Below the pieces are notes generated by a model. That model had not been told where the DNA came from. It saw only the letters and a program-made list of their open reading frames with translations, and searched no databases. A stretch of DNA of 64,000 nt from Rhodococcus gordoniae (GTDB taxonomy: Bacteria; Actinomycetota; Actinomycetes; Mycobacteriales; Mycobacteriaceae), in the NCBI RefSeq assembly GCF_001646655.1, contig NZ_LPZN01000048.1, forward strand, positions 1 to 64,000, given 5' to 3'. Positions 51,448 to 52,898 of the stretch are shown piece after piece (within the stretch, counting starts at the first letter, position 1; every line of letters starts with the position of its first letter). The translations under genes were made by a program, and so were the position numbers.

Positions 51448-51836
51448 GGATCCTCCTCAACATCATCTGGCTGATCTTCGGCGGCCTGTGGCTCGCGCTC
51501 GGTTATTTCGCGGCCGGTCTGATCTGCTGCATCCTCATCATCACCATCCCCTTCGGCATCGCGTCGTTCCGCATCGGCGTCTACGCGTTGTGGCCGTTCG
51601 GCAAGACGACGGTCGACAAACCGACGGCCGGTACCGCGTCGCTGATCGGAAATGTCATCTGGATCGTGGTCGCCGGCATCTGGCTGGCCCTCGGGCACAT
51701 CGCCACGGCGATCGCCATGGCCGTGACGATCATCGGTATCCCGCTCGCGATCGCGAACCTGAAGATGATCCCGATCTCCCTGATGCCCTTGGGGAAGGAG
51801 ATCGTTCCTGTGGAGACCCGCCCGAGTTATATGTGA
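51444..51836 (+). CDS. YccF-domain membrane protein (Rv0870c-like)
   Basis: A 130-residue protein with two YccF repeats: LLNIIWLIFGGLWLALGYFA and, in the second half, GNVIWIVVAGIWLALGHIAT. Each is followed by a conserved proline/glycine loop (ITIPFGIASF and IGIPLAIANL). The helices suggest four membrane passes; the C-terminus is cytoplasmic. The function is unknown; in M. tuberculosis, Rv0870c lies near rpfA and cspB, as here. Its stop codon is overlapped by a perfect CRP-type palindrome. Confidence 0.85.
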   Translation: MRILLNIIWLIFGGLWLALGYFAAGLICCILIITIPFGIASFRIGVYALWPFGKTTVDKPTAGTASLIGNVIWIVVAGIWLALGHIATAIAMAVTIIGIPLAIANLKMIPISLMPLGKEIVPVETRPSYM

Positions 51837-51847
51837 TCTTTATCACA
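51832..51847. promoter_or_regulatory. CRP-type cAMP-receptor-protein binding site upstream of rpfA
   Basis: TGTGATCTTTATCACA is a perfect match to the TGTGA-N6-TCACA CRP consensus, and its 8-bp arms extend to TATGTGAT / ATCACATA (51830-51849). It overlaps the end of yccF and lies about 165 bp before the predicted rpfA start site. In M. tuberculosis the CRP-family regulator Rv3676 is known to control rpfA. Whether this copy acts on rpfA or elsewhere is inferred. Confidence 0.7.
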
Positions 51848-51974
51848 TAACAGGGGGATAACGAGCGGGACTCGAAACGGATTTTCGGGTACCCGAACCC
51901 CACTACCTGGGACTTTATTCCCTGGTACGCGATGCGCGCGTTCGCCGACCCTCGAATCGGCGCGTTATCAATTG

Positions 51975-52003
51975 GTGACACTTCGCCCTCGGGCCGTTAC
52001 CGT
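51975..52003 (+). promoter_or_regulatory. Candidate rpfA promoter
   Basis: GTGACA (51975-51980), a 17-nt spacer and TACCGT (51998-52003) form a plausible vegetative promoter that would start a leader of about 300 nt in which the whole riboswitch is transcribed. Confidence 0.5.
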
Positions 52004-52041
52004 CATGTCCGGTCGAACCGCCAGGCTCGGCCGGTCCGGAA

Positions 52042-52288
52042 CCGCCGCGCCAAATTCCTGTCCCGTGGTTCCGGAAATCCCGACGAACGATCCACAGGGG
52101 ACAGGAAACGGGGGACCCACCGGTCTCCCAGGAACCGACCGGCCCACAGCCGGACGGTGTCCAGGAGGCCCGGGCCGACGCAAGCGCGACGGCCCTCGGG
52201 GTGAAGCCGAAGGCGCTCCCAACGGAGCGACACGGCCGGGCAACCTCTTCAGCCCGAACCCGACAGCTGACCTCGTAGGTGCGTACGG
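52042..52288 (+). promoter_or_regulatory. Cyclic-di-AMP (ydaO) riboswitch in the rpfA leader
   Basis: The leader carries the class's conserved blocks in order: AACGGGGGACCCACC (cf. GAACGGGGGAACCA), GGGGTGAAGCC (cf. GGGGTGAAUC), AACCTCTTCAGCCCGAACCC and GACAGCTGACCTCGTAGG, the last two almost identical to the Rfam-type ydaO core. The 5' arm around 52042-52051 can pair with 52278-52288 to close P1. The right P1 arm touches the GGAGAGGA ribosome-binding site, so ligand binding could hide or free it. ydaO switches usually turn cell-wall lytic genes off when c-di-AMP is high. They precede rpf genes in Streptomyces as well. Confidence 0.9.
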
Positions 52289-52307
52289 AGAGGAACACGG
52301 AACCGAC

Positions 52308-52898
52308 ATGAGCGGACGCCATCGCAAGCCCACCAATACCGGTCGTACCGTCGCGAAGTTCGCGCTGACGGGTGCAGTCCTCGGCGTCACGGGTGTCGCG
52401 TTCAGCGGCACCGCCGCTGCCGCCCCCGACTCCGACTGGGACCGCCTCGCACAGTGCGAGTCCGGCGGCAACTGGGGAATCAACACCGGCAACGGCTACC
52501 ACGGTGGCCTGCAGTTCTCGCCGAGCACCTGGAACGCCTACGGCGGCCAGGAATACGCTGCCTCGGCCAGCCAGGCCAGCCGCGAACAGCAGATCGCCGT
52601 CGCCGAGCGTGTCCTCGCCGGCCAGGGCTGGGGCGCATGGCCCTCCTGCTCGTCGAGCCTCGGACTGTCGAGCGCGCCCACGCAGCGCTCCGTCGACACG
52701 GTCCCCAGCGCTCCTGCGGAGACCCCGGCGCCGAGCATCGAGAACGCTGTCCCGCAGCTTCCGGAGACCCCCGCCCTCCCCGCCGATGTCCAGGGCATCC
52801 TGGCCGGCTTCGAGCAGGGCGTCACCGCGCTCCAGGACGCCGGCGTCGAGCTCGACCCGAACATCCTGGACGCCGTTCGCGCGGTGCTCCCGCAGTAA
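52308..52898 (+). CDS. rpfA: Resuscitation-promoting factor (RpfA-like lytic transglycosylase)
   Basis: A 196-residue secreted protein. The signal peptide (about 1-39) ends SGTAAAAP, giving cleavage before AAP or APD. The Rpf domain (about 42-115) has [20 protein letters not shown] with the catalytic Glu51, [18 protein letters not shown], and Cys50/Cys114, probably disulfide-bonded. The C-terminal 80 residues are Pro/Ala-rich, ending in a helix. Rpf proteins cut peptidoglycan and help dormant cells resume growth. Upstream control is unusually rich: CRP palindrome, promoter and c-di-AMP riboswitch; a strong terminator follows. The ATG follows GGAGAGGA by 13 nt. Confidence 0.92.

Follow-up and report, generated by a model that had tools for sequence, protein, structure and literature searches.

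Upstream of rpfA, in a 64,000-nt stretch of the Rhodococcus gordoniae genome (contig NZ_LPZN01000048.1; hereafter the window), a CRP-type palindrome and an MtrA-type direct repeat are fused, with a constant offset between them, and a second repeat of this type lies over the predicted -35 element. Further downstream, the loop/tail pseudoknot predicted for a ydaO-type cyclic di-AMP (c-di-AMP) riboswitch has a Shine-Dalgarno-like sequence as its 3' strand. From sequence and its conservation among relatives, we consider it probable that this is the Rhodococcus form of the region controlling rpfA in actinobacteria, and that it takes three inputs: CRP with cyclic AMP (cAMP), MtrA and the c-di-AMP switch. 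The initial annotation of this region named CRP and ydaO only, overlooking the MtrA-type repeats at the CRP site and the -35, and offered the combination of cAMP and c-di-AMP as new, though it was already in print for Streptomyces coelicolor rpfA (PMC9960051; this and the other papers are cited from excerpts). What is added here is the fused CRP-MtrA site and the overlap of pseudoknot and Shine-Dalgarno sequence; we found no literature description of such a fused site, or of an rpfA pseudoknot in which the Shine-Dalgarno sequence serves as a strand, in excerpts from a search that did not extend to the primary St-Onge, Rickman and Nelson papers.

The palindrome TGTGA-N6-TCACA (TGTGATCTTTATCACA, 51832..51847, unstranded) matches the CRP operator pattern by sequence. 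It is the sole match without mismatch in the window, and perfect palindromes number 10 in the whole 4.82-Mb genome. The perfect site that had been claimed before rpfA thus stands, and it is kept in all 18 genus genomes (15 perfect copies, three with one mismatch). The MtrA box is described as two direct repeats of 7 bp separated by 4 bp (see PMC6265350, PMC11215152), which we expressed as two half-sites n-R-T-n-A-C-n with that spacing and scanned as RTNAC-N6-RTNAC. Two predicted sites satisfy the half-site consensus: box A (ATAAC-N6-ATAAC, 51847..51862, + strand), which has one base in common with the CRP site, and box B (GTCAC-N6-ATAAC, 51964..51979, - strand), which overlaps the -35. Together the CRP site and box A form a composite at 51833-51862, with the repeat at offset +15 from the CRP core. 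The two boxes, both in the rpfA upstream region, are the only matches in the 64 kb, for which shuffled sequences average 4.3; this count from the window alone is weak evidence because the pattern was devised after the leader had been inspected. All 18 genus leaders have box B, which is absent from some other genera.

Comparison across genomes indicates that the offset is fixed. Among 68 distinct rpf leaders, many of them from Rhodococcus, the CRP core (GTGA-N6-TCAC) occurs in 47; same-strand repeats within 60 bp of a core lie at +15 in 42, at +26 in six and at +25 in two, and opposite-strand repeats lie at +26 in three. The strict composite is present in 132 of 201 family genomes and 23 of 31 genera (147 sites), while the reversed pattern is found in 0/201 family genomes and a version with the repeat shifted by 5 bp in 1/201. 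A class-wide sample gave the composite in 10 of 10 family members versus one of 138 others. The strict form is lacking in 69 of the 201 family genomes, which weighs against the proposed reading.

The composite is also closely tied to rpf genes. An in-frame Rpf motif lies within 1.2 kb downstream at 48 of the 51 composite sites examined out of 147, the test being for the motif in a reading frame rather than a family search; 30 of the loci were top-ranked and 20 hand-chosen (second sites and companions). The three exceptions are a site near a contig end that has an aptamer, a site before a chitin-binding-like gene, and the opposite strand of a site that itself precedes rpf. The second of these (genome G080, contig C1, 2842600-2845000), before a gene resembling those for chitin-binding proteins or lytic polysaccharide monooxygenases, is the only one of the 51 sites where the gene is clearly other than rpf. 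Paralogous rpf genes that have no aptamer bear the composite as well, including a one-mismatch copy before the second rpf of the source genome. At least nine genomes of one family genus have no match to the riboswitch family RF00379 and retain the composite, which precedes rpf in four examined loci; the riboswitch in this genus seems to have been lost separately from the composite.

The repeats could instead be bound by another OmpR-family regulator (PhoP/RegX3 type), or box A could be an extension of the CRP site, with no part for MtrA in either case. Boxes of the OmpR family have a common 11-bp period, and the genome, which encodes MtrA (386 bits, cut-off 300), contains 28 further sub-cut-off matches to the MtrA model. 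However, the half-sites fit the published MtrA consensus, and M. tuberculosis MtrA targets rpfA and binds its upstream region (see PMC6265350, PMC11215152). The same type of repeat also lies upstream of nlpC, the other ydaO gene, in all 17 genus loci, and nlpC is an MtrA target in Corynebacterium glutamicum (PMC9599347). We regard both readings without MtrA as unlikely. Upstream of nlpC, no perfect CRP palindrome was found in the 490 nt searched at these 17 loci.

The predicted promoter (51975..52003, + strand) comprises a -35 element GTGACA (51975-51980), a 17-nt spacer and a -10 element TACCGT (51998-52003). Its assignment, already made in the initial annotation, is borne out by conservation: the block CGTTATCAA[TA]TGGTGACA, which includes the -35, and the TANNNT -10 that follows it are both conserved in every one of the 18 genus leaders, and in a cross-genus alignment 22 of 23 leaders have TA[CG]NGT at the -10 position. 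A simple sigma-70 scan listed no promoter within 51600-53000, missing this one too. Transcription is predicted to start near 52010, so that of the 470-nt leader originally described the region is real, but the part expected to be transcribed is about 298 nt.

The centre of the CRP site lies 158.5 bp 5' of the predicted -10, about 170 bp from the predicted start. Comparable distances recur among the 35 leaders measured (157-162 bp in 26, 139-152 bp in eight and 90 bp in one), and, with the start where it is predicted, they are beyond the usual class I/II activating positions, a difficulty for CRP as an activator of this promoter that makes the mode of cAMP action uncertain. The earlier claim that cAMP and c-di-AMP both gate rpfA therefore survives in part: the elements are real and conserved and the regulators are encoded, including DisA (505 bits, cut-off 201) and one protein with cyclic-nucleotide and CRP-type helix-turn-helix domains (104 bits against the E. 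coli CRP equivalog, below its cut-off of 266), while the action of cAMP from so distant a site is in doubt. One explanation for the distance would be that an additional promoter, so far unrecognised, lies between 51863 and 51960 and is served by the composite, with cAMP controlling a second, longer rpfA transcript. A conserved block, CTACCTG (51903..51909, + strand, from leader alignments), about 64 bp 3' of the CRP centre, would suit such a promoter. The sigma-70 scan finds no pair of elements there, though it also misses the conserved promoter, and the distance from composite to promoter is conserved in most leaders; overall, a second promoter appears rather doubtful. The block recurs as CTACCTG or CTAGCTG in rpfA leaders, and a similar ACCTGCG is found in paralogue leaders. 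That the palindrome is a coincidence without a role in rpfA expression is highly improbable: it does overlap coding sequence far from the promoter, the upstream yccF gene having its stop codon within it, but all 18 genus genomes have it, and it stands with its fixed partner motif before rpf in many genera.

The predicted c-di-AMP riboswitch aptamer (RF00379) extends over 52042..52288 (+ strand) by genus alignment. Rfam scores it at 41.4 bits, above the gathering threshold of 38, and places the match at 52157-52297. We set this placement aside: the 5' half of the aptamer is conserved at 52042-52118 across the 18 genus leaders, and eight of the 18 RF00379 matches before rpfA in the genus span 213-242 nt, both of which make 52042-52288 the better extent; the 5' half appears to have been misplaced because a 79-nt insert (52119-52197) misleads the model. 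The ydaO element first proposed at 52042-52288 is thus upheld by an above-threshold scan, with better boundaries than those of Rfam. All conserved features are present, namely the core segments GGGGUGAA (52198..52205, + strand, in Rfam and genus alignments) and CCCGAACCCG-N-CAGCU, P6, P1 (52046-52051 with 52278-52283, extended by 52042-52044 with 52286-52288; pairs checked) and a core helix (52108-52113 with 52271-52276) that takes in part of the ligand strand GGGGGACC (52110..52117, + strand). As the initial annotation held, the closing stem abuts the ribosome-binding site, since P1 can be extended to 52288, inside the sequence GGAGAGG (52287-52293). The genome has a second ydaO element (82.7 bits) before an NlpC/P60-like gene, named by sequence without a family search.

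GGAGAGG (52287..52293, + strand) is Shine-Dalgarno-like, 14 nt before the ATG, and it would form the 3' strand of a loop/3'-tail pseudoknot whose 5' strand, CCUCUUC (52244..52250, + strand), lies in the loop closed by 52238-52241/52252-52255. The duplex has a calculated energy of -11.2 kcal/mol; the pseudoknot is assigned by sequence complementarity only. A crystallised ydaO RNA has a pseudoknot, its pairs not being listed in the excerpt, and the sequence quoted there allows an 8-bp pairing to be drawn at the same place (PMC5393176). The partner strands covary by lineage (CUCACC/GGUGAG in Streptomyces, CACUC/GAGUG in Dietzia, ACCUUC/GGAGGU in Kineococcus), and a loop/tail duplex of -5.8 kcal/mol or lower can form in 60 of 60 distinct rpf leaders. 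In 59 rpf leaders, the mean energy of loops paired with their own tails beats every one of 1000 permutations of partners, as it does every one of 5000 permutations among 13 chosen representatives. The best Shine-Dalgarno match overlaps the pseudoknot strand by at least 3 nt in 47 of 55 rpf leaders, a strict exact-match count made on rpf leaders only and leaving out one leader with a mis-called start codon (L069) and four with no start called (L092, L115, L124, L142); in Dietzia, the Shine-Dalgarno sequence lies just 3' of the pseudoknot strand.

These leaders come from a set of 73 that contains near-duplicates and many Rhodococcus sequences, and de-duplicated counts are given where stated. The set was built by regular expression and is incomplete: RF00379 was detected in five of 20 loci that the regular expression did not match. 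Four of these five (L078, L080, L081, L130) lie outside the set, and L056 was removed as a duplicate of L079. Two measures were dropped. A loose score for overlap with the Shine-Dalgarno sequence could not tell rpf leaders (59/60) from nlpC-type leaders (31/34), and a pair count on MAFFT alignments was replaced by the permuted duplex energies, tails of unequal length being misaligned at the pseudoknot.

Several observations weigh against masking of the ribosome site by this pseudoknot. Loop/tail pairing is not peculiar to rpf, being available to 34 of 34 nlpC-type and other aptamers at -4 kcal/mol or better; in seven of the 13 representatives some foreign tail outdoes the leader's own, and the permutation test does not remove the relatedness of the leaders. 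Two of the seven pseudoknot pairs (at 52287 and 52288) compete with the P1 extension, the pseudoknot and P1 having been folded separately rather than jointly, and the Shine-Dalgarno-like sequence stands farther from the ATG than is ideal. In nested folds, the unpaired probability of 52287-52293 with the aptamer imposed equals or exceeds that of the free leader, and since nested structure does not hide the Shine-Dalgarno sequence, masking rests wholly on the pseudoknot. The mode reported for S. coelicolor rpfA is premature termination of transcription (see PMC10117811, PMC9960051). The possibility of translational control raised in the initial annotation is thus suggested by the overlap of pseudoknot and Shine-Dalgarno sequence and opposed by the nested folds.

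Transcription attenuation, in which c-di-AMP causes early termination without a canonical terminator and Shine-Dalgarno masking is secondary or absent, would account for the nested folds and agree with the S. coelicolor report, and so strongly folded a leader (z -3.78) could pause the polymerase. On the other side, a simple scan of 51600-53000 finds no terminator-like site, after the aptamer or elsewhere, the pseudoknot strand and a Shine-Dalgarno match coincide in the 47 of 55 rpf leaders noted above, and the nlpC transcript of C. glutamicum is unchanged by c-di-AMP (PMC9960051). We view attenuation as possible but not the likelier course, and favour a translational switch.

Such a switch may include the 79-nt insert (52119..52197, + strand). 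The loop after GGGGACC, which this insert occupies, is 10-94 nt long in rpf aptamers (median 64; both anchors present in 68 of 73) and 8-45 nt long in 45 nlpC-type and other aptamers (median 11). Within the insert, GGUCUCCC (52122-52129) can pair with the ligand strand at 52110-52117, or GGUCUCC can pair with GGAGGCC (52164-52170). In the free fold of the rpfA leader in the window (-131.0 kcal/mol), GGUCUCCC is paired to the ligand strand, and in the core-imposed fold (-130.0 kcal/mol) the insert strand is paired to GGAGGCC within the insert. In all 18 genus leaders the anti-aptamer state lies 0.1-4.5 kcal/mol below the core-imposed one; in 15 of them it is the free minimum, and the insert helix appears in all 18 core folds. 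For 11 of 17 genus inserts, complementarity to the ligand strand exceeds that of shuffled inserts (p<=0.05). On these folding models, the genus insert can capture the ligand-binding strand. In other genera just five of 42 inserts show such complementarity at the same level, a result unfavourable to this part of the mechanism, and beyond the genus the idea of a general pairing was not borne out.

At S. coelicolor rpfA, cAMP acts through CRP. That gene resembles the one described here in being an rpf gene under a ydaO c-di-AMP riboswitch, with cAMP and guanosine tetraphosphate (ppGpp) as further inputs of the published scheme (PMC9960051, citing St-Onge 2015). The Streptomyces leaders differ: of 10 rpf leaders compared, none has an MtrA-type repeat fused to its best CRP-like site, which carries two to three mismatches, and the pseudoknot strand is GGUGAG in most. 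Six Streptomyces rpf leaders share a palindrome TGAGA-N6-TCTCA, and one of them (L171) has, with others, TGAGAGATNGRTCTCA; this palindrome, a best CRP-like site with two mismatches, may correspond in Streptomyces to the CRP site.

A closer parallel in mode is C. glutamicum nlpC (cg2402), where a ydaO aptamer without a canonical terminator most likely acts on translation, GlxR (cAMP) and MtrA sites lie upstream and the authors propose pairing of the ribosome-binding site; that source, dated 2023, describes translational c-di-AMP control as first observed there (PMC9960051). The gene differs in encoding an NlpC/P60 protein, not an Rpf, and the nlpC leaders of the genus itself have a pseudoknot strand CGGAAG just 5' of GGAG, unlike rpfA. 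A ydaO element also precedes C. glutamicum rpf1 (PMC9960051, citing Nelson 2013). For M. tuberculosis rpfA, activation by CRP (see PMC8026907, PMC9927398), targeting by MtrA and a mycobacterial ydaO-rpfA link are each reported separately, whereas a fused CRP-MtrA site is not among the features given in the excerpts. In Rhodococcus erythropolis, of the same genus by name, a ydaO leader (DVG80_05852) is expressed and an rpf gene (DVG80_05851) is up in phage infection (PMC10986025), the adjacency of the two being read from their locus-tag numbers; the excerpts give no analysis of how that gene is controlled.

The rpfA gene (52308..52898, + strand) encodes 196 aa with a transglycosylase-like Rpf domain (Transglycosylas, PF06737, 125.9 bits against a Pfam cut-off of 27) followed by Rpf1_C. 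The protein matches the NCBIfam Rpf and RpfC equivalogs, both below cut-off, and the closest named record found is from Rhodococcus sp. JCM 9791 (95% identity over the best segment). The upstream gene (51444..51836, + strand) encodes a YccF-domain protein (PF03733, 128.5 bits; NF008740, 182.8 bits, cut-off 123). An inverted repeat of 18+18 nt 3' of rpfA (52913..52952, + strand) is possibly a terminator, has no T run and was not detected by the terminator scan; a further strong inverted repeat, of 16+16 nt, lies shortly past it (52985-53020).

The second rpf gene of the source genome (contig C75, 13800-15600), like those of its relatives, lacks ydaO and has a conserved, apparently structured leader with the motif CUGCCCCGCGG ... 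GGGGCAG ... GCGGAGAGGA. Each consensus pair is retained by 10 to 13 of 13 sequences, and the element is similar to hairpin P2 in the rpfA aptamer. No relevant Rfam match was found at E<=0.1 in the relatives scanned, the source-genome leader itself lying outside that scan; the element may have decayed from a ydaO, or it may be a new motif.

We propose that CRP-cAMP would activate rpfA, as in M. tuberculosis, and that MtrA, bound at the composite and over the -35, would probably act as a repressor, as at C. glutamicum nlpC; at the composite the two proteins may compete or cooperate. In the absence of c-di-AMP, GGUCUCCC in the insert would hold the ligand strand GGGGGACC, with the aptamer unformed and the ribosome site free. 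With c-di-AMP bound, the aptamer would fold, GGUCUCC would shift to GGAGGCC inside the insert, and the CCUCUUC/GGAGAGG pseudoknot would close and stop translation. As a lytic enzyme under three such inputs, RpfA would therefore be made only when carbon status through cAMP, the envelope through MtrAB, and c-di-AMP all permit.

In its broadest form the proposal is that one CRP/MtrA operator of fixed geometry, which much of the family keeps almost exclusively for rpf, reads cAMP and envelope status jointly, while at rpfA alone the ribosome site is closed by a c-di-AMP switch whose insert acts as an anti-aptamer; we see the chances of this full version as evenly balanced. Exit from dormancy in actinobacteria is an open question in which Rpf enzymes are central. 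The fixed, fused site suggests that the CRP and MtrA signals are read as one, and the overlap of pseudoknot and Shine-Dalgarno sequence offers a concrete, mutable mechanism by which c-di-AMP may control translation.

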